From the IMG/VR virus record IMGVR_UViG_3300022200_001441, positions 1 through 25,231 of that record: DNA of 25,231 bases, one strand, 5' to 3'. The translations under genes were made by a program, and so were the position numbers. The notes under the pieces were generated by a model. The model did not search any database, was not told the origin of the DNA, and saw nothing but the letters and a program-made list of their open reading frames with translations. Below are positions 6,200 to 24,968 of the stretch, in pieces. This DNA comes from a virus. The first letter of the stretch is position 1. Every line of letters begins with the position of its first letter.

Positions 6200-6232
6200 G
6201 GACGGGGGAGCTTCGGTTCCCCTTGTCCTTTT
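6200..6232 (+). terminator. intrinsic terminator after the capsid genes
   Basis: A 12-bp stem (GGAC then GGGGGAGC pairing with GTTCCCCT then GTCC, one bulged T) closes on a UUCG tetraloop and is followed by TTTT at 6229-6232. Its place after the capsid genes is like the Tphi terminator after T7 gene 10. It would lower transcription into the tail genes relative to the capsid genes. Confidence 0.85.
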
Positions 6233-6247
6233 AATTAGGAGATTAAC

Positions 6248-7605: not shown

Positions 7606-7778
7606 TGAAGTATGGTAACAAAGAACTTATAGTTGAGATGGCTCCTATGGGCAGACACTATGTTATGCGCTTCACTAAGGGGGGAGAACTCCCTGAAGTA
7701 CTTCGTGGTATGTACACCTCTCCAGTAGAAGCATACAAAGCTGCCCAACTGTATTTAGATACGGCTCAGAAGTCTTAG
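7605..7778 (+). CDS. small conserved ORF between tail tubular A and B (57 aa)
   Basis: This short gene fills the gap between the tail tubular genes exactly: its ATG overlaps the upstream stop (TAATG) and its TAG is directly followed by the tail tubular B ATG. The product starts MKYGNKELIVEMAPMGRHYV and contains GGELPEVLRGMYTSPVEAYK followed by a helix. The pattern LxGxYTSxxEAxxA with a final helix resembles a small phage protein family that I recall without a function. It looks like a beta-hairpin followed by a helix, and there is no signal peptide or membrane segment. It could be a tail-assembly accessory or an unrelated small modulator. Confidence 0.7.
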   Translation: MKYGNKELIVEMAPMGRHYVMRFTKGGELPEVLRGMYTSPVEAYKAAQLYLDTAQKS

Positions 7779-10100: not shown

Positions 10101-10942
10101 GTCATGCTCTTGTTGAGCTTGCTCAATGTACTGAGGAACAATTACAAGAAGTAATCAAACTCTCTGTATCTGATGAGCAAGTAGAGGTAGATATCGTTCA
10201 TAGTTTTAGTCCCGGACTGTATATTAGAGAGATGCATGTACCTGCTGGTACTATGGTAATTGGTAAGTACCACAATACAAGCCATTTAAACTATATGCTG
10301 AAGGGTAAGTGTGTATTCTCTACCCCTAAGGGGGTAACCACTGAGGTTACTGCCCCATTCCAAGCTACTACTGGGCCGGGAAGGAAGATTGCTTACTTCA
10401 CTGAGGATTCTGTGTGGGTAAATGTCTTCCCCACTGAAACTAGGGATGTAGAAACTTTAGAAAAAGAACTATTTCAACCAGAGACTGCATTAGTAACAGA
10501 GCACCAGTCTTATAAGGCAGCTTATGAGGCTCTAGGAGAGCTTGAGAGAGAAGACTTTAGCCATGCCTGTAGGGAGCTAGGGTTTAGTGAAGAAGACGTT
10601 CGTACAGCCTCTTTAAATGCGTCTGATTGCATACCATTTCCTGATGGTAGCTATAAAGTCATAGTGCAGGACTCTTACATAGAGGGTAAAGGTTTGTTTG
10701 CAACAGCCAAGATTAAATCTGGGGAGGTTATTGCTCCTGCTAGGGTATCAAAGATGAGAACTCCTGCTGGTAGGTACACCAACCACTCAGTTCTGCCTAA
10801 TGCAGAGATGGTAATGTTGCCCAATGGGGATGTGAACTTGGTAGCAACACTAGATATTGAGGGGTCTTCTGGTGGCTGTGTTTTTAATGAGATCACAGTA
10901 GATTATGTAGAGGCTTTTTTGAATACGAGGATAGAAGAATGA
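10097..10942 (+). CDS. cupin-SET fusion protein, predicted protein-lysine methyltransferase
   Basis: I chose ATG 10097 (281 aa) over the in-frame ATG at 10064 because it gives the ATGA overlap used throughout this cluster and has AGGGAG at 10082-10087. Residues about 35-125 are a cupin-like double-strand barrel of a type recurrent in phages: LYIREMHVPAGTMVIGKYHN, then SHLNYMLKG, with His59 and His63 as possible metal ligands, ending at DSVWVNVFPTE. After a helical linker, residues about 185-275 carry the SET-domain signatures in order: EGKGLFAT with IKSGEVI, then RYTNHSVLPNA (the NHS-PN cofactor-binding motif), then NEITVDY (the catalytic Tyr motif). SET proteins methylate lysines using S-adenosylmethionine. 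The gene sits in the slot of T7 gene 13, between the nozzle and the ejection proteins, so a virion protein or an ejected modifier of host proteins is possible. The target is unknown. Confidence 0.8.
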   Translation: MSHALVELAQCTEEQLQEVIKLSVSDEQVEVDIVHSFSPGLYIREMHVPAGTMVIGKYHNTSHLNYMLKGKCVFSTPKGVTTEVTAPFQATTGPGRKIAYFTEDSVWVNVFPTETRDVETLEKELFQPETALVTEHQSYKAAYEALGELEREDFSHACRELGFSEEDVRTASLNASDCIPFPDGSYKVIVQDSYIEGKGLFATAKIKSGEVIAPARVSKMRTPAGRYTNHSVLPNAEMVMLPNGDVNLVATLDIEGSSGGCVFNEITVDYVEAFLNTRIEE

Positions 10943-11418
10943 GTGCAATAGTCTCAGCGATTGGAGCTACGGCAGTTGCTGCTGGTGCATTGGCTGTATC
11001 TGCGGTGGCCTTAGTAGGTGGTGCTGTAGAATCTCGTAAGGCGGGCAAAGCACAACGACAGTCTATGGAAATACAACAAAGACAGGCAGACATTCAAGCT
11101 GCTCGATCTAGGTATGCTACTGTTAGACAGTCTCGTATGACTAGAGGTGCTATGGAACAAGCGGCTGTTTCTCAAGGAGTATCAGGAAGTTCTGGTATCT
11201 TAGGGGCAGCAGCAGGACTCCAAGCTGCTACTGCTAGTGAGCTGGGTACTAGCCTCACCTTACAAGGACTATCGCAACAAGCCACTGCTGCTAACCAAGC
11301 GGCTTCATCTGCTCAATCTAATGCTGCTATCTGGGGAACAGTTGGGGGATTGAGTGGTTCTATCTTTAGTGATCTGGGTGGCTTTAGTACTCTAGGTAAG
11401 AAGGGAGGGACTACCTAG
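10939..11418 (+). CDS. internal virion protein (gp14-like ejection protein)
   Basis: The 159-aa product has an N-terminal hydrophobic helix (about residues 4-28, AIGATAVAAGALAVSAVALV) followed by a long Gln/Ala/Arg-rich helix (AQRQSMEIQQRQADIQAARS) and a Gly/Ala/Ser-rich region. This is the pattern of T7 gp14-type proteins, which leave the virion first and insert into the outer membrane to start the ejection channel. The gene order (nozzle, this gene, two very large internal proteins) supports the call. The ATG overlaps the cupin-SET stop by four bases, and the stop abuts the next ATG. No signal peptidase site is evident. Confidence 0.72.
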   Translation: MSAIVSAIGATAVAAGALAVSAVALVGGAVESRKAGKAQRQSMEIQQRQADIQAARSRYATVRQSRMTRGAMEQAAVSQGVSGSSGILGAAAGLQAATASELGTSLTLQGLSQQATAANQAASSAQSNAAIWGTVGGLSGSIFSDLGGFSTLGKKGGTT

Positions 11419-14400
11419 ATGGCAATCGGAATTACTCCAGAAGAAGCTAGGGCACTAGGAGTCTCCTATGAGGATGCTAGTACTACAAGTAGGAATGTTA
11501 CTCAACAAGTAGCTACCGATAAAGCGTACAATGTTATCTCTAATTATGAGATGGAAAACATTGATAATGCCATTGCTACTTATACAGGGACTACGACTGA
11601 ACCCCTTGATGCAATGGAGTTTATTGCTCTTGACAAAGAACAAGCACAGCCATTAATTGCTGAGACTTCTTTAGTAGAAGAAGCATTTTATGCTACTAGA
11701 TTACGATCTGTTACTGATTCTACAGCAGATATCATGGGGGATTACGACTTCTTCCATAAGGTAAAGGATGATCTAATAGCTACTGGAAGTAGCCCAGAGT
11801 TGGCTCAAGTCTACAAGGAGTTGACTTCATTGACTCCTGAACTGGATAGGGCAGCTATGATGTCTATCTTAGAGGATCAAACAATACCTCAAAATATTAA
11901 AGAACAATCCTTTAAGACCTTCCAACAAAAAGGTGGGGAGCTATTAGATCTTCGACAAGAGTACGTCAATGCTACTGCTGCCTTAGAATCTATAGAAGCT
12001 GACCGAGAGAAGCGGCGATCTGCTCCATTAGATCTTACCTTTCTTCAAGAAAGGTTAGAATGGAATCAAGAAAGAACTAATGAAATCAATGCAGTAGCCT
12101 CACAATTAGACCCTTCAGTATCTTCTTTCTGGTTGGGTGTGGGAGAGATAATTATTCCATTTATGGATCAAGTGTATGTCCAATCATTAAAAGATAAAGT
12201 ACTTGGTGAGGGTGGTGTAGCTAGTGATGTAGCTGGGGCTATTTTATTTGGAGAAAACAAACAACAGATTAGAGAGGCAATACGAAAGATGCCTTTTGAT
12301 CAACGTAAGGTAGCTGTTCGTGCAATGATCGAGGCTGTCAGTCAGTTGCCGGGAGGTGACTACAAGAAAATGATGTACCTCAGTACCTTAACAGATACGG
12401 GGGAGTATGCTACTTGGGAACGGGCCATTGATAATATAGTGGGGGTATTAGATACACTCACTGTAGCTGGCGTATTGGGCAAGGCAATTGTCAAAACAGG
12501 TGCAACGTTACTAAGAACACATCCAGCATCTGCTATAGAAACTGCTCGTATAGCTAGTAGGGCGGAGGCGGCTAGGTTAGCTACGGCTGCATTAATGGAA
12601 GCTACTGGGGATGCTGCTAAGTCTATGGGCACTAGTAAGGTTGAGGTGGCTAATACATATCTCCTACCTAAAATGTCTGATGAAGTTCTTAATGATTTGC
12701 CTACAGATGTAGTACAGCGTCTTAATGAGATTGAAACAAGACATGCTGGTATCTACGATAACCTTAAAACTAGTGGTATTAACTACACAGATGCAGAAAA
12801 GGTCGCTGCTCTTCAACAGACAACAAGAGATATTGCAGAAGTGCAGGGTATGCACTTGCGTATGGAATCTACTACTCTATCTACAGATGGGGAGTCTTTG
12901 TTTGGTACTGCCATGTATGGCAAGACATCTGAGAAATCCTTTGCTAGTGCAGAGGCTGCTGCTAAGGCAGCGTTAGACTCTGGTATACCTGTAGAAGAAG
13001 TTTCCTTCTTTGTTCGTAATGCAAAGACTGGTGAGTTAGATAGAGTCCCTCTTACTGCTGGAGAGTTAACTGAAAAGGGGACTATTCCAACTAGCAGGGC
13101 ACTATTTGGTGGGCCGAAAGGTCGAGGGTTTGGTACAGCTAGTGAGGCCGCTGAGTGGGCGGCTGCTTCTGGTAAGAACCCTAGAGATTTGCAGGTTATG
13201 GAGAGGTTGCCCACTGGTAAGATGAAGCCTATCTTCCTCTCTTTAGGAGAAATTACTTCTTCTGTTTTGACTAGAGCGGAGATGGCAGCAGGGGCTGGGC
13301 CAGCTAGGACTGGTAAGTTTTTTGTGGAGGAGTCCCGATTCTCTCTGGCATCTGTGCCAAAAGGCTCTGAGTTCTACATAGGTAGGACATTCTCTCGTCC
13401 ATTTGATTTACGAGATGCTGCTATTTTCGGTGGTGATAGTATATCTAGGGTAGCAAAGATACAAGGGGCTAGTTATATTGCAGACATTACCTCCAAGTTT
13501 GATAACTGGTTTGCTAGGGCTGCTCTTAAGGCAGCAGACAATGCTACTGCTATAGAGAAACAGTTTTTAGATATGGTTAGGCAAGATGTGTCCTCTCTGA
13601 AAAGAGGGCAGAAGGCTGATCTTTTCAAGGCATTGGAACAAGGGTCAACAGACTCTGTTACTTATACTAGAACAGACTTGGCTACTAAGTTTGGATTAGA
13701 TGAGGGAACTATTAGAGCATACTACACTTACAGGAAAGTGCAGGATCTTTCTTGGTTTCAAACTAATAAGACCTTCCGCAAGAAGCTGGAAGGTATGGGC
13801 ATGAAAGAGGTCAAGGGCATCTCTTCTGTAGATGGTAGACAGTTTGCTGCTCCTCTTACTAGAGAACAGGCTAGTAGTGTTACTCATGTGTATGATGCCA
13901 AACAATCTAAAGTTATCCCAGTTACTAAAGAGTACTTGGATGAGATGTATGCTGCTGGCAATTCCTTAGGTAAGATGCATAGTCCAATCAAGACCTTGGA
14001 TAGTAGGACTTCCCATGTACTAATTGATAACAAGACTACTACCCTTGGTAGGTTGCCAGATAGCCCACTCCCTTACATAGATGGGTACTATCAACGATCT
14101 TACCGAGAGAACTACTTCCTTGATAAAGTTCCTAAGAACGGAATCATGGTAGATGGTAAGTTCATTAATGATCCAGTAATACTAGAGGCTAAGTATGGTT
14201 CTGCTATAGCAGCAGGTACTAGCAAGGGCGTTCTGCAAGGCAAAGTAAATGACCTCAATGCTAATTTAGCTGCTAATGCAGACTACTACTATCGTGTGCG
14301 ACGAGCCAATGAGTTTGATGATGTTGATGTAGCAGAACTACAGTTACGAAAGAGTTACCAGAATGCTTCTAGAGGTAGGGGTGTCCACCTAGAGGGTCAG

Positions 14401-16434
14401 ATAGATAATTCCCTAGCTGCTATTGCTGATCCAATGGAATCTTTATTTAATAATATCCGTACTATGTCTAAGTATGTAGCAACAGATGACTTCATGGCTA
14501 GTTCACAACAACGGTGGGTTAATACATGGGGCAAAGCTACTGGTGGTAAGTACCCATTAAATTTTAAAGATGTTGCAAAGGGTAGACTAACTGACGATGA
14601 GTATGCTTCTGCTAGAGCAGTACATAAGCAGTTAGAAATGATGAACATGGCTACTGGAAAGACTGATGCAATCTGGCGTAACTTTATGCTGGCTGCTTCT
14701 GAAACTCTAGATGGTAGGTCTTTGATGTTAGCTGACATGACTAGAGGGTTGTCAGAGATCAGTCCTGTAGGGGCTGTACGAAGTGTCTCCTCTACACTGT
14801 TCATTGCCCTCCGTCCTATTAGGCAGTTGGTAATACAACCAGCACAGCTTATGCAGTTAGCCTTTGTAAGTCCCTTGTACTATGCCAGTGGTAGAGCATC
14901 CAGAGAGTTGTTGGCTCTGTCTTTATCAAGGGCTACTTGGGGCAATGTAGACCTGACTGCTAAGGTTAATGACATAGGGGCTAAACTCTTTGGAACTACT
15001 CCAAAAGAGTACGAGACTATTGCTAAACACTACTATGATAAGTCTGGTTTGCCATATAGTGTAGATAGTCACTTGTATATTGATGGAATCGTAAAGGATG
15101 TACATGCCAGCCACCTAGATAGTGGGCTGAAGAGGGCAGTGTCAACTGCATTAGCTCCGGTCAGGGCTGTTGTAGGCTTATCTAAAAAGATTGGCTTTGA
15201 TACTGGGGAATTCATTAACTTAACTGGTAGTTGGTTAACTGCTAGAGATAGGTGGATGAAGGCAAACCCCACTATAGCTACCAAATGGGCAGACAAACAG
15301 TATGTAGATGTCATTGATGCAGATGCAAGGGCATTGTCTTACGCCATGACACAACCGGGCAGCTTTGCCTACCAACAAGGCTTGTTGTCTTTACCATTAC
15401 AGTTCATATCAGTGCCACACAAGGCTCTTCTGTCTGTACTTCCTGCTGCTTGGGGTGGTAGTCGTACCCTAAAGGGCATAGAGAAGGCTGGGATAGCTGC
15501 TGGCAATCTAATTATGTTTGGTGGGGTGGGTGTTGGTATAGATAGTGCCCTACAAACAGTCTTAGAGACTACGGGGGCTGTTCTTACCGAAGAAGCGTCT
15601 ATGGGAATTAGGGGTGGATTGATGGATCTTGGTATGAATTCGTTACTAAGAACATTATCAGATGATGAGAATGATGGCACTGCCATTAAGTTCTCTGATA
15701 GCTTTTCTCCAATATCTGATAAGGTAATTCCCGGAGCAGAGATACTTACCCATCTATTAGATGGGGAGGTTAGTGCTTTAATAGGCCCATCTTTCCATGC
15801 ACTGGGAAGATTCAATGAAGTGTTTAATGATATTAAAGTTATTACTGCCAAGCCTGATGCTTCTACTCCCGAGAAAATTGTACAGACTATGGCTTCTGTA
15901 GCTAGTCTAGCCTCTGGGTTTAATGATGGCATTAAGACTATGATAGCTATGAATGCTGGGGTGCTTGTGTCTAAGAGTGGGGATGCAGTAGTAGAAGCTA
16001 CCTACCAAGAAGCTATGGCAAAGATGTTTGGACTACAGACATATGCAGAGGTAGCTACATGGGACATGGCTAGGAAATTGGGGGATCGTAATCAGTTAGC
16101 TAAAGATTGGGCTGCTTTGCTACATGCTAACTACTCTAAACAAAGACTAGCACAAGGTAGTACTAAAGCGGACTTTATGGAATTAGTGAGTAGGTACAAA
16201 GCTCTGGAGAACTTAGTTGATCCTGATATATTAGCCTTGGCCTACAAAGAGTTAGTGAAGTTGGAGACTAGGAGTTTATCTACTACCCAAGATAGTATGC
16301 TTAACTGGCTAATTAATGATGCTATGAATGGGCCAGAAGCTAGACAGAAAGCAATTGATTACATTAATGGTAGTTCAAATTCACAAGAAATAAAGGATGA
16401 TATGATTAAAATCTTAGAGTTGGGGATTAAATAA
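11419..16434 (+). CDS. giant internal virion / DNA ejection protein (1671 aa)
   Basis: This is the largest gene in the window and corresponds by size and place to T7 gp16-type ejection proteins. The sequence is mostly helical and charged, with a few hydrophobic stretches that could cross or enter the membrane, for example AGIAAGNLIMFGGVGVGIDS in the C-terminal third. Residues about 494-545 and 562-607 form an internal repeat. I see no lysozyme or transglycosylase catalytic motif at the N-terminus, unlike T7 gp16. The C-terminal 150 residues are helical and rich in Lys/Glu/Leu. It would be stored in the head core and travel into the cell with or before the DNA. Unlike in T7, it precedes the 666-aa companion. 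Function is inferred from context. Confidence 0.72.
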   Translation: MAIGITPEEARALGVSYEDASTTSRNVTQQVATDKAYNVISNYEMENIDNAIATYTGTTTEPLDAMEFIALDKEQAQPLIAETSLVEEAFYATRLRSVTDSTADIMGDYDFFHKVKDDLIATGSSPELAQVYKELTSLTPELDRAAMMSILEDQTIPQNIKEQSFKTFQQKGGELLDLRQEYVNATAALESIEADREKRRSAPLDLTFLQERLEWNQERTNEINAVASQLDPSVSSFWLGVGEIIIPFMDQVYVQSLKDKVLGEGGVASDVAGAILFGENKQQIREAIRKMPFDQRKVAVRAMIEAVSQLPGGDYKKMMYLSTLTDTGEYATWERAIDNIVGVLDTLTVAGVLGKAIVKTGATLLRTHPASAIETARIASRAEAARLATAALMEATGDAAKSMGTSKVEVANTYLLPKMSDEVLNDLPTDVVQRLNEIETRHAGIYDNLKTSGINYTDAEKVAALQQTTRDIAEVQGMHLRMESTTLSTDGESLFGTAMYGKTSEKSFASAEAAAKAALDSGIPVEEVSFFVRNAKTGELDRVPLTAGELTEKGTIPTSRALFGGPKGRGFGTASEAAEWAAASGKNPRDLQVMERLPTGKMKPIFLSLGEITSSVLTRAEMAAGAGPARTGKFFVEESRFSLASVPKGSEFYIGRTFSRPFDLRDAAIFGGDSISRVAKIQGASYIADITSKFDNWFARAALKAADNATAIEKQFLDMVRQDVSSLKRGQKADLFKALEQGSTDSVTYTRTDLATKFGLDEGTIRAYYTYRKVQDLSWFQTNKTFRKKLEGMGMKEVKGISSVDGRQFAAPLTREQASSVTHVYDAKQSKVIPVTKEYLDEMYAAGNSLGKMHSPIKTLDSRTSHVLIDNKTTTLGRLPDSPLPYIDGYYQRSYRENYFLDKVPKNGIMVDGKFINDPVILEAKYGSAIAAGTSKGVLQGKVNDLNANLAANADYYYRVRRANEFDDVDVAELQLRKSYQNASRGRGVHLEGQIDNSLAAIADPMESLFNNIRTMSKYVATDDFMASSQQRWVNTWGKATGGKYPLNFKDVAKGRLTDDEYASARAVHKQLEMMNMATGKTDAIWRNFMLAASETLDGRSLMLADMTRGLSEISPVGAVRSVSSTLFIALRPIRQLVIQPAQLMQLAFVSPLYYASGRASRELLALSLSRATWGNVDLTAKVNDIGAKLFGTTPKEYETIAKHYYDKSGLPYSVDSHLYIDGIVKDVHASHLDSGLKRAVSTALAPVRAVVGLSKKIGFDTGEFINLTGSWLTARDRWMKANPTIATKWADKQYVDVIDADARALSYAMTQPGSFAYQQGLLSLPLQFISVPHKALLSVLPAAWGGSRTLKGIEKAGIAAGNLIMFGGVGVGIDSALQTVLETTGAVLTEEASMGIRGGLMDLGMNSLLRTLSDDENDGTAIKFSDSFSPISDKVIPGAEILTHLLDGEVSALIGPSFHALGRFNEVFNDIKVITAKPDASTPEKIVQTMASVASLASGFNDGIKTMIAMNAGVLVSKSGDAVVEATYQEAMAKMFGLQTYAEVATWDMARKLGDRNQLAKDWAALLHANYSKQRLAQGSTKADFMELVSRYKALENLVDPDILALAYKELVKLETRSLSTTQDSMLNWLINDAMNGPEARQKAIDYINGSSNSQEIKDDMIKILELGIK
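12898..13239 (+). repeat. internal protein repeat in the giant ejection protein
   Basis: Two tandem units of about 50 residues share the pattern LFG...K...F, then A-rich helix EAA..AA.SG, then a strand and TG turn. Unit 1 (residues 494-545) contains FASAEAAAKAALDSGIP and AKTGELDRVPL. Unit 2 (562-607) contains FGTASEAAEWAAASGKNP and LPTGKMKPIFL. The DNA has diverged, so the duplication is old. Confidence 0.55.
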
Positions 16435-18434
16435 TGGCTACCTTTCAACCTGATCGACCAACTACAGACTTAGGTGCTGCTACCTTTGTACAACAAGGGG
16501 TTAAGGATGTGGGTAGGGAGTCCCTTGCTAATCTACTTGCCACTGCTGGTAAAGCAGCATGGGAATTTAAGGTGGCTGGTGATATTTCTCAGACTCAGGA
16601 GCAGGCAGCACAAGCCATTACTGAATTCACTAATCAAGCAACTAGTGCTAACGATGCAGTAATTAATGCACAGGCTCAGTTCATAGAGGCTAATGATGCT
16701 GTGCAGTGGGGGGCTAGTTCATATAGTCCCACTGCGGATGAGGTCAAAGCATTGGAAGATGCAAAGACTAATTTAGCTAGGGTAAAGACAGCAAGAGCAA
16801 ACAATGTCATTACCGAAACAGAGATGAGGGCTAGGGTATCTGACATTACTCGTAAGGGTATCTCTTTAATGCCGGGTAGGAGTCGAGAGTTCATTCAAGC
16901 TAGTAATGAAGCACTTGGCACCTACTCCGGTAACATTCAGTTGGAGGCAGAAAGACAAGCCGTTCTTATGAAGACTAGGCAGGATTCTCAAGTAGAGGTT
17001 GATAAGCAAACAGATAAAATTTATGGGATGGCCCTTACTGCGGGCATAAGTCCTGTTGATTCTCAAGGTAGAATAAGAGATAGGCAGCAAGTGATTGCCG
17101 AGTACTCCCCCTTAGCAGTAGACAACCAGTACATTGCACAGGTTACTGCTCAAGTACAGGGGAATGAGGTGTTTCAGCAGCAGGTACTGCAAGATCCTCG
17201 TATGCTTAATAAGTTATCTACTTCTAATTTAATGGATCTTAATGCTGCATACAAAAGTTTGGATACTATGGTAGATCCACAAACTAACCAGCCATTATCC
17301 ATAGAACAGAAGATAGTTCAGCTACAGACTTTCAAAGCACAAATGCAATCTAAATTTGCTGGTGAGTATGGTGGTGCCCAAGAGACAGCACAGTATAAGA
17401 ACATGGTTAGTATGATAGATAGTCAATACGCCCTATTAGAAAAGAATCTTATGGGGGGAACTAGTAAGGATTATTCCGTTAATCTTGTATCTACTGCTGC
17501 TAATGAGATTACTATGACAATTCAGAATAACCCTGTACTACGAGAGGCTATGATCTTGAAGCAAGTAGTGGGTGAGGGGCAGTTGTTAGAAGTCTTGCGG
17601 CAAACTGGAGCAGTAGATTTTGTGTCTGCTATATCCTCTGCTGTGAGGGGACTTCCATTACGAGCAACTGGTAGTAATACCCCAGAGGAGCAAGCACAAA
17701 CCTTTGCAGTTGGTTCTACTATTCATGCAATGGTACAAGAGTTGGCTGGAGGTGAGTGGGGTACTGATGATACTGATCAGGTAGTGCAAGCAACTACAGG
17801 ATACTTAAGTAACTGGCAAGCTGACACTGCCAAGAATAATAAAGTTCTGTTTACTATGTTAGCTGACCCAAACTTCTTGCCTTTGTCTGATAGGATTCCA
17901 GATGAGGCTAAGGATAATGTAGGTTCTGCTTTGGCTGATGTTGTCTTTGATACTATGATGAATCATGTTGGCCCTAGAGTTAATACTAATACTATGACAA
18001 TCACCACTAGTGGTAGTGGTACATCAATAACAGCGAAGTCAAATGCTACTAAAGAAGATAGAGCTACCATACAACAGTTGAATAGTTTAACACAACAAAT
18101 GCAAATGGCTGTTAAGGGGATACTCCATCTACAGGGAAGTGAGCAGTATGCTAGTGCCAATAAAGCTATAGGGGATATCATGCAAAGTGTTGCCCAGTCA
18201 GCTACTGTAAGTAATGCTGAAGCTGCTGCTACTCTTAAAGAAGAAAAGAAAATCTTTTGGGATTGGGTATGGAAGGATGGTACTGGCACATTAGAGCAGT
18301 ACAAAGCTAAACTAAAGGCTAGAGAGGCAACTGTTCCTAGTAACAAAACCCCAGAGGTGGGTTCTATAGAGCAAGGTTGGAAGTTCAACGGTGGTGATGC
18401 AGGAGATGCAGCTAACTGGACTAGGGTAGCATAA
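16434..18434 (+). CDS. internal virion protein (666 aa, gp15-like candidate)
   Basis: The product is a long, mostly helical, Gln/Ala/Thr-rich protein, fitting the second large core or ejection protein of podoviruses. It starts FQPDRPTTDLGAATFVQQGV. It ends with PEVGSIEQGWKFNGGDAGDA and NWTRV, a version of the short GxxxxGYxFxGGDPxxxxxW motif that recurs at the ends of phage virion proteins (recall). Its ATG overlaps the stop of the 1671-aa gene (TAATG), and its stop overlaps the next gene in the same way. No enzyme motif or signal peptide is visible. By context it should be packaged in the head and ejected. Confidence 0.68.
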   Translation: MATFQPDRPTTDLGAATFVQQGVKDVGRESLANLLATAGKAAWEFKVAGDISQTQEQAAQAITEFTNQATSANDAVINAQAQFIEANDAVQWGASSYSPTADEVKALEDAKTNLARVKTARANNVITETEMRARVSDITRKGISLMPGRSREFIQASNEALGTYSGNIQLEAERQAVLMKTRQDSQVEVDKQTDKIYGMALTAGISPVDSQGRIRDRQQVIAEYSPLAVDNQYIAQVTAQVQGNEVFQQQVLQDPRMLNKLSTSNLMDLNAAYKSLDTMVDPQTNQPLSIEQKIVQLQTFKAQMQSKFAGEYGGAQETAQYKNMVSMIDSQYALLEKNLMGGTSKDYSVNLVSTAANEITMTIQNNPVLREAMILKQVVGEGQLLEVLRQTGAVDFVSAISSAVRGLPLRATGSNTPEEQAQTFAVGSTIHAMVQELAGGEWGTDDTDQVVQATTGYLSNWQADTAKNNKVLFTMLADPNFLPLSDRIPDEAKDNVGSALADVVFDTMMNHVGPRVNTNTMTITTSGSGTSITAKSNATKEDRATIQQLNSLTQQMQMAVKGILHLQGSEQYASANKAIGDIMQSVAQSATVSNAEAAATLKEEKKIFWDWVWKDGTGTLEQYKAKLKAREATVPSNKTPEVGSIEQGWKFNGGDAGDAANWTRVA

Positions 18435-19075
18435 TGGCAGAGCCTTGGTTGAAGTATGCTCCTACTGATGGGCCTTGGACTACATATGCTAAGGCTGCTG
18501 GAACTGCTGCACAGGCCGTGGCAGAAGAAGCTGTTGATTTTATTCCCATTATTGGAGATGTTAAGGGTGCTATCGAAACTAAAGAAGCCTTTGATAAAGG
18601 AGATAAACTAGGGGTAGCTTTGGGTGCTGCTAGTATGTTTCCTATTATTGGAGATATTCTAAGTAAGGGAGGTAAAGCTATTAGAAAGGGGGGTTTGCCG
18701 GGATTTAAATTAGAAACTACTACTCCTAATTTTGATGCGGCATTAAAAGATCCTGAATATTTTCGCACAGCTAAAAAAGTTGAAGTGCGAATGGTGGAAA
18801 TGTCTCCATCGGAATACATTAGGGCAGCAGCAGAGGGATTTACCAAGGAGGGTTATCCTACGGGGCCAATTGCCCTTAGAGAATCTAGAAATCCTAAGTT
18901 AGTGGGGCAATATGCAAAAGATATGGAGGCTGGCGACAAGTTCCCTGCCCTGTATCTTGACTATTCTAAGGGTGGGTTTGGACAGGAAGGTCTTCATCGT
19001 GCAATGGCAGCAGAAAGTTTGGGTTATGAGACTGTCCCTGTAGCAATACGAACAGATGTTGGAGTTTCAAAATGA
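18434..19075 (+). CDS. putative ejected protein with ParB-like C-terminal domain
   Basis: The 213 residues show three parts. First is an N-terminal EPWLKYAPTDGPWTTYA, a motif typical of podovirus internal virion proteins. Second is a Gly/Ala-rich, partly hydrophobic segment with a doubled motif, DFIPIIGDVKGAIE (about 35-48) and MFPIIGDILSKGGKAI (about 68-83), which resembles pre-toxin or membrane-associated segments. Third is a C-terminal domain (about 115-205): VEMSPSEYIRAA, VGQYAKDMEAGDKFPALYLD, QEGLHRAMAAESLGYETVPV. The G-Q-E-G-x-H-R-A...VPV pattern is that of the ParB/Srx-like nuclease or NTPase fold found in phage and mobile-element effectors. Together they suggest an effector delivered with the DNA, but a structural role cannot be excluded. 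It overlaps the endolysin gene by four bases. Confidence 0.55.
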   Translation: MAEPWLKYAPTDGPWTTYAKAAGTAAQAVAEEAVDFIPIIGDVKGAIETKEAFDKGDKLGVALGAASMFPIIGDILSKGGKAIRKGGLPGFKLETTTPNFDAALKDPEYFRTAKKVEVRMVEMSPSEYIRAAAEGFTKEGYPTGPIALRESRNPKLVGQYAKDMEAGDKFPALYLDYSKGGFGQEGLHRAMAAESLGYETVPVAIRTDVGVSK

Positions 19076-19419
19076 AGTACTTTAAGAGAGAAGAGTTTGT
19101 CTGCCCTTGTTGTGGGGTAGAGGATATGCAGGAAACATTCTTAAACATGCTAGACATAGCAAGAGGAGAGGCAGGTGTTTCATTTACAATTAATTCTGGC
19201 TATAGGTGTAAGTCTCATAATGCAGAGGTCGGAGGGGCTACTCATAGTGCACACACTACCGGATATGGAGTTGACATTTCTTGTACCAGTACAGCAAACA
19301 GATTCAAGATTGTCAATAGCTTACTAGCTAGGGGATTTAATAGGATTGGTATTGCTAACTCATTCATTCATGTTGATTGTGATCCCAGTCTACCATGCAA
19401 AGTAATATGGGTGTACTAA
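19072..19419 (+). CDS. endolysin, peptidase M15 family (L-Ala-D-Glu or D-Ala-D-Ala type peptidase)
   Basis: This 115-aa protein is a compact zinc peptidase that cuts peptidoglycan peptides at lysis. It begins YFKREEFVCPCCGVEDMQ, the usual N-terminal Cys-containing motif of the M15A subfamily. It continues with FTINSGYRCKSHNAEVGG, then SAHTTGYGVDI, where His61 and Asp68 are zinc ligands, and FIHVDCD, with His100 as the third ligand and Asp102 beside it. All expected catalytic positions are present. There is no signal peptide or membrane anchor, so release depends on the holin encoded next. The ATG overlaps the preceding stop by four bases. Confidence 0.9.
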   Translation: MKYFKREEFVCPCCGVEDMQETFLNMLDIARGEAGVSFTINSGYRCKSHNAEVGGATHSAHTTGYGVDISCTSTANRFKIVNSLLARGFNRIGIANSFIHVDCDPSLPCKVIWVY

Positions 19420-19420
19420 G

Positions 19421-19813
19421 ATGAGTGTATTAAATCTATTGATAGGCCCAGTCACAAGCCTACTGGATAAGTTCATTGAGGATAAGGATCAGAAGAGTGC
19501 TTTGGCGCATGAAATTGCAACAATGTCAGAGAAGTACGTGCAAGAAAGTGCGTTGGCTCAGATAGCAGTGAATAAGGTAGAGGCTGCTAGTCCTTCTTTA
19601 TTTACATCTGGCTGGCGACCTGCTACAGGGTGGGTATGCGTACTAGGTATGGCAGGTAACTTTCTTGTTATACCCTTTGCAAACTTTGTAATGGCTTTAA
19701 CAATGGAGATTCCTGTCACAGTACCTTTAATACCTTTAGATACAATGTTACCTGTGTTACTGGGTATGCTTGGTCTTGGTGGACTGAGGACTTTTGAGAA
19801 GACGAGGAAGTAA
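19421..19813 (+). CDS. holin (3TM, GTA-type family)
   Basis: The 130-aa product has an amphipathic N-terminal half (LIGPVTSLLDKFIEDKDQKS) followed by FTSGWRPATGWVCVLGMAGN, a transmembrane segment, and LDTMLPVLLGMLGLGGLRTF near the end. The SGWRP-GW...LLGLGGLRTFEK pattern is that of the 3TM holin family first named from gene transfer agents. It would form the inner membrane holes that release the M15 endolysin. The gene starts two bases after the endolysin stop (TAAGATG) without an obvious ribosome binding site, so it is probably translated by coupling. It ends in a basic tail, as expected for a cytoplasmic C-terminus. Confidence 0.82.
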   Translation: MSVLNLLIGPVTSLLDKFIEDKDQKSALAHEIATMSEKYVQESALAQIAVNKVEAASPSLFTSGWRPATGWVCVLGMAGNFLVIPFANFVMALTMEIPVTVPLIPLDTMLPVLLGMLGLGGLRTFEKTRK

Positions 19814-19979: not shown

Positions 19980-20183
19980 CTATGCTGCGATAGTATTATC
20001 TGCCATAGTGATTGCCCAGTACTGTTCAAACATCTCCTTCATATAGGCAGGGATACGGATACGTTCTTGCACTCCCTTGCTATCTTCCAGTGTCATAGTG
20101 TACTCATTACCATGGTTCCATGAGTATGCAATGATGTTCTTGCCTTTGAATACCTGCATACTGTGCTCTACTCGTAATCCCAT
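19980..20183 (-). CDS. hypothetical protein (67 aa), last gene of the - strand block
   Basis: I do not recognise a family. The product has two beta stretches (QVFKGKNIIAYSWNHGN and YTMTLEDS), a basic strand (RIRIPAYMKEMFEQYW) and no membrane segment. The ATG at 20183 is preceded by GGAG at good spacing within the end of the helix-turn-helix gene, which it overlaps by 16 bases. A second Met at codon 9 is possible. Because it is last before the hairpin at 19955-19974, it is probably co-transcribed with nrdJ and the helix-turn-helix gene. Confidence 0.55.
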   Translation of the reverse strand: MGLRVEHSMQVFKGKNIIAYSWNHGNEYTMTLEDSKGVQERIRIPAYMKEMFEQYWAITMADNTIAA

Positions 20184-20491
20184 TCTTCATTCTCCATTCT
20201 AAGATTGATTTCTTCTTGTACCATGAGTAGGTCTAAAGGATCACCTGTTCTAGCTTGATCACTTGACAACAACTCCTCCCCATTCAAGTAACAACCACTA
20301 CCAACATCCCTAAAGAATGCTTCATACCTATCTGCTCTTTGTCTCTGTCTTTTACCTCCTTTGTTATTAAGAACAGAGTGTACCGTTGTCCTAGATAGAT
20401 CCAAAGACTCAGCAATCCATGATATAGACTTACCATCACGATGTAAAGCCTTGATGACAGACTGCTGAATGTGGTTCACATCATTACTCAC
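20168..20491 (-). CDS. small helix-turn-helix DNA-binding protein (107 aa)
   Basis: Residues about 9-45 form a homeodomain-like or resolvase-type helix-turn-helix: SVIKALHRDGKSISWIAESL, then DLSRTTVHSVLNNKGG, followed by a basic stretch (KRQRQRADRY). The C-terminal half is acidic (EEINLRMENEEWDYE) and could contact a partner or oligomerise. It starts with GTG, overlapping the end of nrdJ by 8 bases, with no clear ribosome binding site, so translation is probably coupled; a GTG at codon 5 is an alternative. There is no catalytic domain, so it is more likely a regulator than a recombinase. A role in switching expression is inference. Confidence 0.65.
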   Translation of the reverse strand: MSNDVNHIQQSVIKALHRDGKSISWIAESLDLSRTTVHSVLNNKGGKRQRQRADRYEAFFRDVGSGCYLNGEELLSSDQARTGDPLDLLMVQEEINLRMENEEWDYE

Positions 20492-22175
20492 AACTTTTAA
20501 TGCCTGTGTCTACATCTATGTAGCAGGCTTGTGGTTCATCAGTAGTAGTTCGTTCAACTAAGATACCAAACCTTTTGCCTGATGGATTAAAGGTCGTGAC
20601 ACCCTTACAACCAAGCTCCCATGCCTTAGTATAGATAGCCTTGAACTTATCCCAAGGTAGGGTAGGATCTACGTTGATCGTCTTCGATACAGCAGAGTCT
20701 ACATACTTAGAAGATAGAGCCAACACAGCAAGGTGCTCATCCTCTGTACATTGCATAGCTGTCTTACCTTTAGTTCCGTACTCACGGTAAGCATAGTCAC
20801 TCACTGTCTCTACTATAGGGCCATTGAAAGTTTGTATGGTACGGTCATACTCATGGCTAAACACTGGCTCAATGCCAGAGGATACATTGTCAGCAGTTAG
20901 ACTGATAGTTCCTGTAGGTGCTATGCTAAGTAGGTGACTGTTCCTAATGCCATGCTTCTTGATTAGCTTTTGTACTGAGTTCGGGAGGGTCTGGATAAAC
21001 TCTCCTTTAAGGTAGTACTTAGCATCGTAAAGAGGGAAGACACCCTTCTCACTAGCAAGTAAAGCACTAGCCTTGTAAGTCTCATCTCTAAACACTCTCA
21101 GGACTTCCTCAAGCCACTCTAAGAAGGCTGCTGAACCATACTCGTACCCTAGTATCTCCCCTGCATTGGCTACCCCTGTAAGCCCTAAGCCCATCCTACG
21201 TTTGTTGTAAGATTCTTTCTCTTGTTCTACTAATGGGAAAACTGTGTTGTCATGGATGTTATCCATAGCCCTTGTCACTATGGGGATGTCTTGTTTAAAC
21301 TGCTCGAAGTCAAAGCCTACGTCCGTAGTTACGTACTTAACTAAGTTGTAACTACCCAACAGGCAAGCACCGTATGGTGGTAGTGGCTGTTCTCCACAAG
21401 GATTAGTAGCCGCAATCTCCTCACAATAGTACAGGTTATTCATCTCATTAATACGGTCAATGAACAGTACACCCGGCTCTGCCCATTCCCATGTAGATCG
21501 CATGATCTCTTCCCATAGGTTAGCTGCATTTACAGTCTTGTATACCCTACCCTCAAAGGTAAGGTTGAAGGATTTGTTCTTAGTAACACACTCCATGAAC
21601 TCATCAGTCACACCAATAGAGATGTTGAAGGCAGTGAGTTGATCACTGTTCTGCTTGGCTCTAAGGAACTCTTCAATGTCTGGATGGTCTACCCTAAGCA
21701 CACCCATCTGAGCACCCCTACGATGACCTGCACTAGCTATAGTCTTACATATAGCATCATAGATCTGCATGAATGATACTGGGCCAGAGCTACGACTACC
21801 AAGAGATACAATGTTATCTCCCTTAGGTCGTAGGTTACTGAAGTCATACCCTATACCACCACCTAAGCGCATAGTCTCCGCAGCTTCTGTAGCTGTCTGC
21901 ATAATAGACTTCATTGAATCCTCTACTGTGCCACTGACAAAACAGTTGAAAGCAGTAAGAGTACGAGGGGCACCAATGGCAGCTTGTGTCCTACCACCAC
22001 CCATAAATCTTTGATTCAGTAGTATGCTACGTAAAGCAAGGAAGTGTTCATGGTTGTCCTTGAGAGTAGAGGCAAACCTTGTCTGTGCTTCATAGAAAGA
22101 CTCACCTTCAAGTCTATACTTCTCTGCATGTTTCTCTTCACTAAGTCTCAGTGTTGGCCCATATTGTTTATTCAT
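20484..22175 (-). CDS. nrdJ: ribonucleoside-triphosphate/diphosphate reductase, adenosylcobalamin-dependent (class II)
   Basis: This 563-aa enzyme reduces ribonucleotides to deoxyribonucleotides using a radical made from vitamin B12. Visible residues are the redox Cys78 (TAFNCFVSG) and the active-site loop ATNPCGEQPL with Asn258, the thiyl-radical Cys260 and Glu262. The partner Cys271 is in GACLLGSYNL, and the phosphate-binding loop SIAPTGTISLTADN lies at about 417-430. The C-terminal tail has two Cys (551 and 562, CYIDVDTGIKSCE) that may shuttle electrons from thioredoxin or glutaredoxin. There is no ATP cone and no class I radical subunit nearby. The length fits short phage NrdJ proteins. 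AGGAG lies 8 bases before the ATG. Activity would depend on host cobalamin. Confidence 0.95.
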   Translation of the reverse strand: MNKQYGPTLRLSEEKHAEKYRLEGESFYEAQTRFASTLKDNHEHFLALRSILLNQRFMGGGRTQAAIGAPRTLTAFNCFVSGTVEDSMKSIMQTATEAAETMRLGGGIGYDFSNLRPKGDNIVSLGSRSSGPVSFMQIYDAICKTIASAGHRRGAQMGVLRVDHPDIEEFLRAKQNSDQLTAFNISIGVTDEFMECVTKNKSFNLTFEGRVYKTVNAANLWEEIMRSTWEWAEPGVLFIDRINEMNNLYYCEEIAATNPCGEQPLPPYGACLLGSYNLVKYVTTDVGFDFEQFKQDIPIVTRAMDNIHDNTVFPLVEQEKESYNKRRMGLGLTGVANAGEILGYEYGSAAFLEWLEEVLRVFRDETYKASALLASEKGVFPLYDAKYYLKGEFIQTLPNSVQKLIKKHGIRNSHLLSIAPTGTISLTADNVSSGIEPVFSHEYDRTIQTFNGPIVETVSDYAYREYGTKGKTAMQCTEDEHLAVLALSSKYVDSAVSKTINVDPTLPWDKFKAIYTKAWELGCKGVTTFNPSGKRFGILVERTTTDEPQACYIDVDTGIKSCE

Positions 22176-22395
22176 GTATGTTGCTCCTGTTTTTGTCAGA
22201 TATAAATTCCCAATTCTTTACTACCTTACCTGTATAGTATTGATATACTCTACTGAGAGCGGCTAAGTCCTGCTTCACATCGTCAGGGTAATCTTGGTAA
22301 CCGTGCATACTACATAAGTTCTTAATTGATTCATGTAGTGAATCACTTACTAACTTATCTATTTGATCAGGCTCCATTGAGAAGGTTATTAGCAT
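22168..22395 (-). CDS. small helical protein of unknown function (75 aa)
   Basis: The product reads as two helices around an acidic loop: DQIDKLVSDSLHESIKNLC and DDVKQDLAALSRVYQYYTG. Small phage proteins with the pattern IDxLVxxxL...ALxxVxxYY are common in early regions and have no assigned function (recall). The 63-aa protein at 24777-24968 shows the same pattern and may be a paralogue. The ATG overlaps the DUF3310 stop (TAATG), with GGAGAG upstream, and the stop overlaps the nrdJ start by 8 bases. Confidence 0.6.
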   Translation of the reverse strand: MLITFSMEPDQIDKLVSDSLHESIKNLCSMHGYQDYPDDVKQDLAALSRVYQYYTGKVVKNWEFISDKNRSNIHE

Positions 22396-22703
22396 TATAA
22401 ACTCTCCATCAAAAGGTCAATGTAATGTTTTGCTTTCTCTAGGTCAGCCTTACCACCCTTTGAATTGTACCTACAGATGTACTTAATGACGTTACCGGCA
22501 CAGAAGCCTATGTCGTTAGCCTGTATAAACTCTACAGGCTGTATCTTCATGTCCTTGTAGTGGCTACCCCCCACTTGTACACCAAGTGCCCTTGCTTTTT
22601 CATGCTCTTCAAAGGTCAACTCTGTCTGTTTATACATTGCTCTATGAGCGTAATCCCACTCAGAAGGTGTTACATTATCTAAAGATTTTTTCATTTTATC
22701 CAT
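22395..22703 (-). CDS. DUF3310 protein (putative nucleotide kinase-associated)
   Basis: Residues about 42-101 match the DUF3310 pattern: VQVGGSHYKDMKIQPVEFIQ, then NDIGFCAGNVIKYICRY, then KGGKADLEKAKHYIDLL. This small family is widespread in phages and is often labelled nucleotide kinase or SaV-like without biochemical proof. It lies among nucleotide and DNA metabolism genes, which agrees with a supporting role there. Two starts are possible: Met1 at 22703, where GAGGG lies only two bases upstream, or Met4 at 22694, which makes an ATGA overlap with the preceding gene. I kept the longer form. The stop overlaps the next ATG (TAATG). Confidence 0.8.
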   Translation of the reverse strand: MDKMKKSLDNVTPSEWDYAHRAMYKQTELTFEEHEKARALGVQVGGSHYKDMKIQPVEFIQANDIGFCAGNVIKYICRYNSKGGKADLEKAKHYIDLLMESL

Positions 22704-23386
22704 CGCCCTCTTTTGTTGAGTACCATAGGTACAAGTATTGGTGTGCCTCCAAGTGAATCAAACTTGTATATGTCTACCCATGTCCATGAATCTTTTAATC
22801 CATACAGGGCGTTGTAATCATTCAACATTGCAGGAGGTAAGCCTGCTGTCATTAACTTTCTAGCTGGAATGTTATCATGATTGCCTTTAGAAATTACCAT
22901 AGTGGGGAACATCTCTTGAAGCAATGCACAATCCCTCTTTGCATGGTAGTACTCAGTCTCTGCATCTAAAGCATCAGGCTCTGACTCGTGATAAGAACCC
23001 CTGTGATGGTCTATAATATCCCCTACGTTGAGTATTGTATCACACTTATACAACCTTTTGGTAGCGTATAAGAAGTCTAGTGCATCCTTGTGTTGATATG
23101 GTAAGTGCATATCAGATATAACTAGAATGTTCTTAATATCATTTCTAATTACACCACATCCTAACACTGGCCGCTTCAGTACATTACGAATAGCGTACCT
23201 AGCAGCCACTGAATTAGGATCAAGTAAGCATCCCACTGACATAGCCCACCTAAGTTGGTGCATGTCTGCATAATAACTAATCTCAAATACGCTGTGATGA
23301 TGCCCCTGTATAGAGTTGTGTGAGTACTTAGCTGCATTGTTCCTAGTGTTAGAACTTACACTATGAGTCATGAGAGTATCAATCAT
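22691..23386 (-). CDS. calcineurin-like metallophosphoesterase with circularly permuted motif order
   Basis: The 231-aa product has all the metal-binding motifs of calcineurin-like phosphoesterases, but in an unusual order. Residues about 6-80 carry the part that normally ends the domain: MTHS (His8), NSIQGHHHSVFEI (GHxH at 28-31), then WAMSVGCLLDPNSVAA and RPVLGCGVI. Residues about 86-209 carry the part that normally begins it: NILVISDMHLPYQ (DxH at 92-94), LNVGDIIDHH (122-128), SKGNHDNIPARK (168-177), DSWTWVDIYKF. The last residues, TPILVPMVLNKRGRW, are again what I would expect at the usual C-terminus. All ligand positions are kept, so an active phosphatase or nuclease is plausible. The substrate is unknown. 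The start has GGGAG upstream; both ends overlap their neighbours. An assembly error is the main alternative. Confidence 0.82.
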   Translation of the reverse strand: MIDTLMTHSVSSNTRNNAAKYSHNSIQGHHHSVFEISYYADMHQLRWAMSVGCLLDPNSVAARYAIRNVLKRPVLGCGVIRNDIKNILVISDMHLPYQHKDALDFLYATKRLYKCDTILNVGDIIDHHRGSYHESEPDALDAETEYYHAKRDCALLQEMFPTMVISKGNHDNIPARKLMTAGLPPAMLNDYNALYGLKDSWTWVDIYKFDSLGGTPILVPMVLNKRGRWIK

Positions 23387-23594
23387 CTTCTACTTCTCCC
23401 ATTGATAACAGCATTCGTTTTGACTGTTCTAATAACCAAAGAACATCAGCAGGGTTTAGTGTGGATGTACCATCAAGAATTAACTGTTCTTGTTCCTTAC
23501 TCCAACCTAGTACAATAAGAGATTCATATTCTCCTTTACATCTTTCCAGAACTACATCTGGATCTTTGTCTTTGTGTAGTTGTATTACTGTCAT
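23379..23594 (-). CDS. hypothetical protein (71 aa)
   Basis: The product starts MTVIQLHKDKDPDVVLERCK and continues YESLIVLGWSKEQEQLILDG, then LNPADVLWLLEQSKRMLL. Small phage proteins with a DPDxxLxxCKGxYxxxxVxGW pattern are frequent in early regions without known function (recall). I prefer the ATG at 23594: it makes an ATGA overlap with the endonuclease I stop and has GGAG six bases upstream. A GTG four codons earlier would use that same GGAG as coding sequence. The stop overlaps the metallophosphoesterase start by eight bases. Confidence 0.65.
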   Translation of the reverse strand: MTVIQLHKDKDPDVVLERCKGEYESLIVLGWSKEQEQLILDGTSTLNPADVLWLLEQSKRMLLSMGEVEDD

Positions 23595-23989
23595 TTGATA
23601 CTCCACAGATGAGGTGTAGTTTCTCTAGTATAATGTTGGAAGTTATAACTTTCTGCCCATTCACCATGAGTACGTCTAGTACCATCCTTCCTACGTTGTG
23701 CATTGGGCATGGGTTTATCTGGGTCAGAGAAGATGAATACTAAAATCTCATTCTTCTTTAGGTTAGCTGCTACATCAACATACTTACGAGCTTCCCCACT
23801 AGTACGGAACCTTCCCTTAACTTCTATGTAGATTACAATCTTACCATCATGGTATACAAAGTCAGGTTCATATAGTTTCTTTTGTACATAGGACAACTTA
23901 CAAGGGTGGAACTTACAGGCTCTTAGTTGTTGTTTGTGGAGGTCGTGTTCAAACCAACTATCATATCCATTAGGGGGTTTCTTTTTCAT
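23591..23989 (-). CDS. endonuclease I (T7 gp3-like Holliday junction resolvase)
   Basis: The 132-aa product cuts branched DNA such as four-way junctions, and in T7 relatives it also helps degrade host DNA. The PD-(D/E)XK core is complete: Glu14 in WFEHDL, Asp43 in LYEPDFVYHDG, and Glu56 and Lys58 in IYIEVKGRFRTS. These correspond to T7 Glu20, Asp55, Glu65 and Lys67. The downstream part (ILVFIFSDPDKPMPNAQRRK, then THGEWAESYNFQHY) matches the C-terminal half of the family. I chose ATG 23989, preceded by GGGGGA, over an in-frame TTG at 24001. Its N-terminal region overlaps the end of the 54-aa gene. Confidence 0.9.
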   Translation of the reverse strand: MKKKPPNGYDSWFEHDLHKQQLRACKFHPCKLSYVQKKLYEPDFVYHDGKIVIYIEVKGRFRTSGEARKYVDVAANLKKNEILVFIFSDPDKPMPNAQRRKDGTRRTHGEWAESYNFQHYTRETTPHLWSIK

Positions 23990-24134
23990 TGTGTCCCCCA
24001 AAGGTATCTGTCAAGGTTCTATGAATCAATGTGGCTAATGATATAATTGCTGGATCAGCATCCTCTAGCACATCAAATTTAACTATAACTTCCTCACCTT
24101 CCATTGTAATATTTATATTAGTTGTAGTGTTCAT
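23970..24134 (-). CDS. small ORF between thyX and endonuclease I (54 aa)
   Basis: The 54 residues fill the gap downstream of thyX, starting two bases after its stop and overlapping the first 20 bases of the endonuclease I gene. The start ATG has GAGG about ten bases upstream inside the thyX 3' end. The product begins MNTTTNINITMEGEEVIVKF, followed by an acidic segment and a helix (PAIISLATLIHRTLTD). There is no recognised domain. Spacing and ribosome binding site support a real gene, but a leader or untranslated spacer cannot be excluded. Confidence 0.5.
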   Translation of the reverse strand: MNTTTNINITMEGEEVIVKFDVLEDADPAIISLATLIHRTLTDTFGGHNEKETP

Positions 24135-24136
24135 TT

Positions 24137-24784
24137 TTATTTATCCTCATAAGTTAATGCTTGCCAACTAGTCCTAAGCTCTGCAATAGAACTAATTATA
24201 TCATAAATTTCCTTAGCAACAACAGTCGTTTCTTTCTGTGCTGTTGATTCCATCCTTTGATTACACACTCTGGCAAAGGCTACGAGGCTACCAGTCCAGT
24301 ACCATGAGGTCATCATAGACTGTGGCAGTACCATCCTTGCCTGCTCAGGACATACACCCATGCTCAGTAGCTCCTTGTACACGCTCGTAAGCCTCAGCAT
24401 AGCCCTGTGGTAGACAGCGCCAGCCACACCACTATGTTGGATAGGGTTAGCAGAAGATCCCTGCTTGACGTTATCAGCAGCCTGCCTCCATACATCTGGC
24501 ACATGGAATGTCGGAGGATCACTAACATACCTGCGACTTACTTCATTCCAGACTAAACCTACCTGATGCTTGACCAACTGTCTGGCTACGAACACTGGGG
24601 CTTCTACTAAGACTGTGACTTGCACATGGGCAAAGGGTGTCCAGTGATTATGCTTTGCTAGGTACTTGATCAAGTTAATATCTTTGTTACTAAGAACAGT
24701 AACTGTCTTATCAAAGCTAACTCTAGCACTGTTAACCACAGTGAGGTCACTTCCCATGTGATCAATATAGTCTACACTACTCAT
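24137..24784 (-). CDS. thyX: flavin-dependent thymidylate synthase
   Basis: The enzyme makes dTMP from dUMP using methylene-tetrahydrofolate, FAD and NADPH. The ThyX signature is present in variant form at residues 72-86: KHQVGLVWNEVSRRY instead of RHRxxSxNExSxRY, keeping His73, Asn80, Glu81, Ser83, Arg85 and Tyr86. The N-terminal part has HNHWTPFAHVQVTVLVEAPV, with the expected His residues before the flavin-binding strands. The C-terminal part has GVCPEQARMVLPQSMMTSWY, with the conserved Arg150 and LP. The length of 215 aa fits. Together with nrdJ it covers dNTP and dTMP supply. The ATG overlaps the stop of the upstream 63-aa gene. Confidence 0.93.
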   Translation of the reverse strand: MSSVDYIDHMGSDLTVVNSARVSFDKTVTVLSNKDINLIKYLAKHNHWTPFAHVQVTVLVEAPVFVARQLVKHQVGLVWNEVSRRYVSDPPTFHVPDVWRQAADNVKQGSSANPIQHSGVAGAVYHRAMLRLTSVYKELLSMGVCPEQARMVLPQSMMTSWYWTGSLVAFARVCNQRMESTAQKETTVVAKEIYDIISSIAELRTSWQALTYEDK

Positions 24785-24968
24785 GATTCACTAACCATTC
24801 ATTGTACTCATCATAAGTCATAAAGTATTCGAGTACCGTATCTATTGCTTTACGGTACTCAATGTCCTTATCCGGTGTATCATATGGATCCCAATTTAAA
24901 TGATAGCTCTGTTTCAAAGTTGCCACCACAATCATATCTATACATTCATCCTGTAATTCAATCTTCAT
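24777..24968 (-). CDS. small helical protein of unknown function (63 aa)
   Basis: The product is acidic and helical: ELQDECIDMIVVATLKQSYH, then DIEYRKAIDTVLEYFMTYDE. It resembles the 75-aa protein at 22168-22395 in the pattern IDxxVxxxL, acidic loop, AxxxVxxYY/F, and may be its paralogue. GAGGA lies about six bases before the ATG. It is preceded by the only sizeable intergenic gap on the - strand (24969-25037), which holds a candidate promoter, so it may be the first gene of a transcript running through thyX to nrdJ. Confidence 0.65.
   Translation of the reverse strand: MKIELQDECIDMIVVATLKQSYHLNWDPYDTPDKDIEYRKAIDTVLEYFMTYDEYNEWLVNHE

Follow-up and report, generated by a model that had tools for sequence, protein, structure and literature searches.

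Calcineurin-like metallophosphoesterases belong to a superfamily that includes Mre11/SbcD and LpxH as well as the serine/threonine phosphatases, and its metal ligands lie in the motifs DxH, GDxxD, GNH, H, and GHxH. Here, the first half of a chain in this normal order (DxH, GDxxD, and GNHD) is denoted segment A, the second half (the single His and GHxH) segment B, and the C-terminal strand and tail segment C. Among described phage proteins, the closest are those of PHROG 221 (phage metallo-phosphoesterase), which occur in Autographiviridae, pelagiphages, and others. Both halves of these proteins are homologous to those of the protein described here and share its ligands, but they are arranged A-B-C; the closest PHROG 221-type isolate is 39.9% identical, the best value among 60 of 632 records listed. 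In phage K1E, which encodes a PHROG 221 protein, the canonical gene follows genes for an exonuclease and endonuclease VII. The nearest relatives in phylogenetic trees are canonical sisters from IMG/VR and one MAG (L116, L117, L122-L125, L127-L131, and L142), which also have the order A-B-C and are 37-43% identical to our protein in A and 44-61% identical in B. Among proteins of known fold, YfcE, PolD DP1, LpxH, and Mre11/SbcD share the fold of a canonical sister model (Z 12.5-14.8) but differ in segment order from the permuted protein.

Jumbo-phage DNA adenine methylases have a fold unrelated to that of the metallophosphoesterases. Circularly permuted forms of these methylases are a precedent for the natural permutation of a phage enzyme (PMC7824862). 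In a 2007 survey, approximately 31-35% of within-fold alignments of the metallo-dependent phosphatases (SCOP d.159) are listed as non-sequential, in a section that names no d.159 protein (PMC2213659, Table 3). As far as the comparison of structures goes, this listing argues against absolute novelty, and non-sequential alignments of this kind may stem from symmetry within the fold. No earlier description of a permuted metallophosphoesterase was found in the openly accessible portions of the full-text literature; the sections available from PMC7824862, PMC9503650, PMC12419801, PMC3175470, and PMC2876114 do not describe one, and those from PMC12667903 make no mention of phosphoesterase, phosphatase, calcineurin, phage, or viral. 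We consider it probable that the gene described here represents the first recognized natural permutation of the metallophosphoesterase fold, with an order B-A-C that arose once at the canonical locus, is carried by phages with dissimilar terminases, and retains a working two-metal site. An inherited swap in which all metal-binding residues are kept offers a natural experiment on the freedom with which a fold can be rewired, and the 21 distinct full-length permuted proteins together with their normal-order sisters allow a direct test of the tolerance of a two-metal site to re-threading of the chain.

The gene is located in a 25,231-nucleotide stretch of viral DNA (hereafter, the window), where it occupies positions 22691..23386 of the minus strand and encodes a 231-aa protein with the segments in the order B-A-C. 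Segment B (residues 2-82; 23141..23383, minus) contains His8, within MTHS (23363..23365, minus), and the GHHH version of GHxH (residues 28-31; 23294..23305, minus), of which residues 29 and 31 are ligand histidines. Segment A (residues 83-213; 22748..23140, minus) contains DMH (DxH; residues 92-94; 23105..23113, minus), GDIID (GDxxD; residues 122-126; 23009..23023, minus), and GNHD (residues 168-171; 22874..22885, minus). Segment C (residues 214-231; 22694..22747, minus), the normal C-terminal strand and tail, is C-terminal here too. The open frame and the residue positions of the four motifs agree with an earlier note on this DNA. Joint 1, from B to A (residues 81-86; 23129..23146, minus), is a short linker that lacks a remnant of segment C, and joint 2, from A to C (residues 210-215; 22742..22759, minus), is a short turn that lacks a remnant of segment B; the same note had placed the joints near 23126-23143 and 22730-22753, only 3-12 bases away.

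The motif order along the chain is His8, GHxH, DxH, GDxxD, and GNHD. His8, left unplaced previously, occupies the alignment position of the 'xTHG/xVHS' histidine that precedes GHxH in canonical enzymes, and segment B therefore contains three ligand histidines. Membership in the superfamily is indicated by a Pfam PF00149 match (5.6e-8; residues 86-201) and by a match to phrog_221, the phage metallo-phosphoesterase group, in two stretches (1.8e-39). All superfamily ligand motifs are present in 21/21 permuted rows of the alignment, none of which has the collinear, DxH-first order. A Pfam match over half of a protein is not in itself a mark of permutation, since the canonical protein of L116 is likewise less than half covered. 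NCBIfam yielded no match for the window protein or L175 and only sub-threshold matches for L116 and L107, and neither of the two proteins compared with PADLOC gave a match.

The kind of rearrangement was evaluated with a profile HMM built from 12 canonical sisters, which was run on the permuted proteins in their native form and after rearrangement to A-B-C. The native window protein was matched in three pieces that follow each other in the chain order B-A-C: B with 114.1 bits (residues 4-83; profile positions 133-212), A with 137.6 bits (residues 85-209; profile positions 2-125), and C with 9.8 bits (residues 214-230; profile positions 212-228). Once rearranged to A-B-C, the same protein gave a single match of 291.1 bits. 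Three pieces in the native form and one piece in the rearranged form were obtained for all 19 full-length permuted proteins analyzed, the window protein included. The C piece is weak on its own (3.3-14.2 bits across the 19 proteins), and its placement after A is also seen by alignment in 21/21 full-length permuted proteins. A plain circular permutant, with the old C-terminus fused to the old N-terminus, would read B-C-A, whereas C here follows A. In this rearrangement, A and B have exchanged positions and C has not moved. The earlier description of the enzyme as circularly permuted is thus borne out as to a real change of order, which the HMM detects, but not as to its kind.

Homologs were compiled from scans of IMG/VR that were seeded from a permuted query and classified with segment HMMs; two of the scans covered the best 80 loci, in one case among the matches listed, and the resulting counts are therefore lower bounds. 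The B-A order was identified on at least 31 IMG/VR contigs besides the window, from at least 28 different dataset numbers. L112, which ends at a contig edge, was left out of this count, and locus L001 is the window itself on the opposite strand rather than a canonical relative. Among the matches listed, the first set of ORFs comprised 40 B-A, 108 A-B, and 9 A-only ORFs and the second comprised 11 B-A and 69 A-B ORFs, numbers that include loci re-fetched from one contig. At the level of distinct proteins, the earlier set held 21 permuted (two of them cut by contig ends) and 79 canonical sequences, and the addition of L172 and L175 brought the number of distinct full-length permuted proteins, window included, to 21. 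Identity of the permuted relatives to the window protein ranges from 100% after rounding (L002) down to 44% (L175). In cellular genomes (genome_contigs), the sole relative was L122, which has the canonical order. A PF00149 search for a second copy in the same phage returned one match per record in 13 records, the window included, most of which are fragments.

The permuted protein was predicted by AlphaFold2, from 14 permuted sequences, to form one compact domain (pLDDT 82.7, pTM 0.85), consistent with the earlier proposal that the fold may be retained; the model of L116, a canonical sister, was likewise built from 14 sequences and had a pLDDT of 86.4 and a pTM of 0.86. Strands of segment B are predicted at residues 4-8, 24-28, 35-40, 45-50, and 76-81. 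When elements of the two models were matched by eye, B (4-81) corresponded to canonical residues 131-210, A (86-209) to 4-128, and the strand at 215-220 to 213-218. Two new short turns, one from the end of B to the first strand of A and the other from the end of A to C, would join these canonical-like elements, and halves A and B would still come together to build the two-metal site.

An order-dependent aligner gave the permuted model a best Z of only 6.4 (103 residues of 1ii7_A, which is Mre11) and aligned A and then C while skipping B (model residues 85-223 on 1ii7_A 1-270, and 86-231 on LpxH chains 2-242 or 2-243). By the same aligner, the canonical model reached Z values of up to 14.8 and scored at least 8 against 481 of 993 chains, each model having its own candidate list. 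Order-dependent comparison therefore performs poorly on the permuted form, and similar proteins elsewhere could be missed. Foldseek found no solved chain matching the permuted model at E 0.001. In sequence searches of solved structures at E 0.1, the canonical profile had no match, and the three matches of the permuted profile, all weak, were to a phosphoribosyltransferase that is unrelated. The BFVD library of viral structures contained one full-length match, the separately predicted 240-aa protein A0A516M849 (TM 0.90 by query length; 62% identity over 229 alignment columns), which is most likely a member of the permuted clade.

Phylogenetic reconstruction from the rearranged alignment grouped 19 permuted rows as one clade relative to 42 canonical rows (support 98/96), and a tree of 21 permuted and 47 canonical rows likewise recovered one permuted clade (100/95), with one change of order on the tree. 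The clade was also recovered from segment A (98/90). It was not recovered from segment B (79 columns), where permuted genes grouped weakly with L130/L131 (80/39), and a single permuted clade was not rejected by these data (p-AU 0.317). The larger tree placed canonical L130/L131 beside the permuted clade (93/85, not starred); in the 19-versus-42 tree (87/43) and in the A tree (96/84, starred), they grouped with the other canonical sisters. The trees were rooted at the midpoint, and the nested position of the clade, together with the normal order elsewhere among the genes seen, suggests a change from canonical to permuted. The permuted genes form a conserved clade among normal-order phage genes, and a single origin is probable.

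The positions H8, H29, H31, D92, H94, D123, D126, N169, and H170 are invariant in 21/21 permuted and 47/47 canonical rows, in agreement with the earlier claim that every metal ligand was kept. Whole-gene dN/dS was 0.036 between L006 and L108 and 0.042 between the window and L088, the latter with synonymous sites near saturation (pS 0.71). Values for the near-saturated pairs L088-L108 and L088-L002 were 0.082 and 0.043, respectively, and several other pairs were saturated at synonymous sites, leaving dN/dS undefined; the value of 0.264 for the window and L002 derives from very few changes. Short pieces of the gene are less constrained, with dN/dS of 0.125-0.415 in C and up to 0.25 at joint 2. 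The low values where dN/dS is measurable point to purifying selection on the gene. If the two-metal site is retained, the permuted protein would have enzyme activity, as an active phosphodiesterase or phosphatase.

We regard it as very likely that the gene is a rearranged tailed-phage calcineurin-like metallophosphoesterase, of order B-A-C, that belongs to one clade, has kept its ligands, would be active, and arose by duplication at the canonical locus. Since the window is an IMG/VR virus record, a chimera of metagenome assembly could be invoked for the B-A order. However, independent assemblies share that order, namely the further contigs (at least 31) with proteins 44-100% identical to that of the window; the same two joints occur in 21/21 full-length proteins; and the gene overlaps both of its neighbors. 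An assembly artefact is in effect refuted, with a probability that is practically nil. A dead or moonlighting protein, in which the chain folds and enzyme function has been lost, would have a parallel in Vps29, which is not known to have enzyme activity and chains of which are among the structural neighbors of the canonical model, but the invariance of the nine motif positions (21/21) and the low whole-gene dN/dS where measurable make it very doubtful. The new linkers are short, as might be expected if the site were completed between chains in a domain-swapped dimer, and the weak grouping with L130/L131 in the B tree, together with an identity between the window and L131 of 61% in B and only 40% in A, would be compatible with a gene assembled from halves of two lineages. 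Both variants appear quite unlikely, given that the single-chain model has a pTM of 0.85, that constrained trees were not rejected in either half (p-AU 0.30-0.46), and that B is closer to the window than A in 12/12 sisters, so that the excess in B is not particular to L131.

Duplication followed by outer loss is the textbook route to circular permutation, and the earlier note had proposed it as a tandem duplication of the entire gene from which only the outer parts were then lost. This would bring B ahead of A, but it would also put the tail between B and A, where the linker is short and C is absent in 21/21 proteins; C instead follows A, both by alignment (21/21) and by HMM pieces (19/19). 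The order B-A-C is left unexplained by such a route, which cannot alone yield it and which we consider highly improbable. B-A-C needs either a duplication of A-B with internal deletion of the second B or a one-step exchange of A and B. The origin by duplication that we favor would have taken place at the canonical gene's own locus, where a partial tandem duplication of A-B would have given A-B-A-B-C, loss of the first A would have given B-A-B-C, and deletion of the second B would have given B-A-C. With B-A-B-C as an intermediate, a whole normal domain could have survived until the last step. The clade allows a test of whether natural permutation proceeds via a duplicated intermediate. No ORF with a duplicated half was detected among the ORFs of the matches listed in either set.

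Several other sources of the swap were considered and set aside. Direct repeats at the joints comprised only three short two-copy pairs, none of which links joint 1 to joint 2, ruling out a direct-repeat scar. Phi NF-1 and Achromobacter Axy09 seemed at first to have a possible B-like stretch before A, but their complete proteins are canonical, with an N-terminal extension. A split-gene route via phage K1E, suggested by two small BFVD models, was rejected because NC_007637 has a single metallo-phosphoesterase gene of 1008 bases.

The gene is tightly flanked in the window. Its start overlaps by 8 bases a 75-aa ORF (23379..23606, minus) that has no Pfam match and has homologs in L088, L108, and L102, and its end overlaps by 13 bases the gene for a small protein of a phage 'nucleotide kinase' PHROG group (22395..22703, minus; phrog_236, 2.5e-22); overlaps on both sides resemble those in a packed phage operon. 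An endonuclease gene (23591..24001, minus; phrog_945, 2.4e-24), labelled 'endonuclease' by PHROG and which we take to be T7 EndoI-like, is encoded nearby. In L130 and L122, the canonical gene has a homolog of the endonuclease upstream, and in L130, L129, and L123 it has a homolog of the small kinase-like gene downstream. The canonical locus L130 is thereby much like the window, with the endonuclease upstream and the kinase-like gene downstream, two small ORFs intervening before the latter.

Exonuclease and endonuclease HMMs were seeded from neighborhood ORFs chosen by eye, nine of which are PHROG-named exonucleases or endonucleases. Both genes were found upstream in 9/18 permuted loci with at least 2.5 kb of flank, in 5/10 canonical-sister loci with such a flank (9 contigs), and in 13/74 of all canonical loci, sisters included; because some scoring loci are themselves HMM seeds, these counts are descriptive and not a test, and among the permuted loci one protein is common to L088 and L089 and a second to L092, L094, L096, and L100. 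The window, the flank of which is too short for the 2.5-kb count, has the endonuclease nearby. Neither gene was detected by these HMMs in permuted loci L097, L098, L099, L104, L105, and L111. When inspected by eye, L097 is flanked by a helicase-like ORF on the upstream side and a methylase-like one on the downstream side, and an HNH-like ORF is present in L104 and likewise in L109, which is outside the 18-locus count. ThyX and ribonucleotide reductase genes also occur in the neighborhood. Permuted and canonical relatives share a common neighborhood in part of the loci.

Given the adjoining phage exonuclease and EndoI/EndoVII genes, the probable substrates of the protein are DNA ends or nucleotides, acted on during the processing of phage DNA or the breakdown of host DNA. 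The mycobacteriophage metallophosphoesterase Gp48 has phosphodiesterase activity that is abolished by D10G, and it reportedly damages the DNA of the host and blunts defence (PMC12287305). Gp48 is no more than a possible lead to the role of the permuted family.

The window terminase is 63% identical to that of CRP-5 and 58% identical to that of MEP401, both of which are Zobellviridae, and the window portal is 57% identical to those of MEP401 and MEP402, which makes this family a possible placement for the 25-kb fragment. The structural genes (plus strand, 79-19813) and the replication and metabolism genes (minus strand, 19980-24968) converge near 19.8-20.0 kb, and CRP-5 and MEP401 have an identical convergent layout. 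A search of 16 further permuted records for the window terminase, run without a positive control, gave no match. In pairwise comparisons, this terminase showed nothing of note in the L115 record (best E 0.58) and weak similarity in the L100 record (25% over 142 aa, E 1.2e-4), as compared to 63% for the CRP-5 control. A terminase shared among the permuted-gene phages was ruled out by pairwise comparison of the window, L115, and L100 records, and the dissimilarity of their terminases shows that more than one lineage of phages carries the permuted gene.

In MEP401, a calcineurin-like phosphoesterase (L158:9990-10757) lies between an endonuclease and a protein resembling the window kinase-like gene. 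It was dismissed as a parent of the permuted gene despite occupying the same slot, as neither segment HMM matches it, and it is possible that one phosphoesterase family replaced another at this position. The permuted protein of L107 (L107:2317-3195) has an extra N-terminal stretch before segment B with two CxxC pairs, which resembles a zinc ribbon, although Pfam matches are weak and sub-threshold. In MW202697 (L159:8465-9211), a protein annotated polB follows an HNH endonuclease and has a CxxC-rich tail reminiscent of the L107 ribbon. Lastly, the structural genes of the window include a 292-aa ORF (10064-10942) that matches the SET domain at 22.1 bits, slightly below the cut-off of 22.4; a SET methyltransferase domain, if present, would be odd for the structural region of a podovirus.
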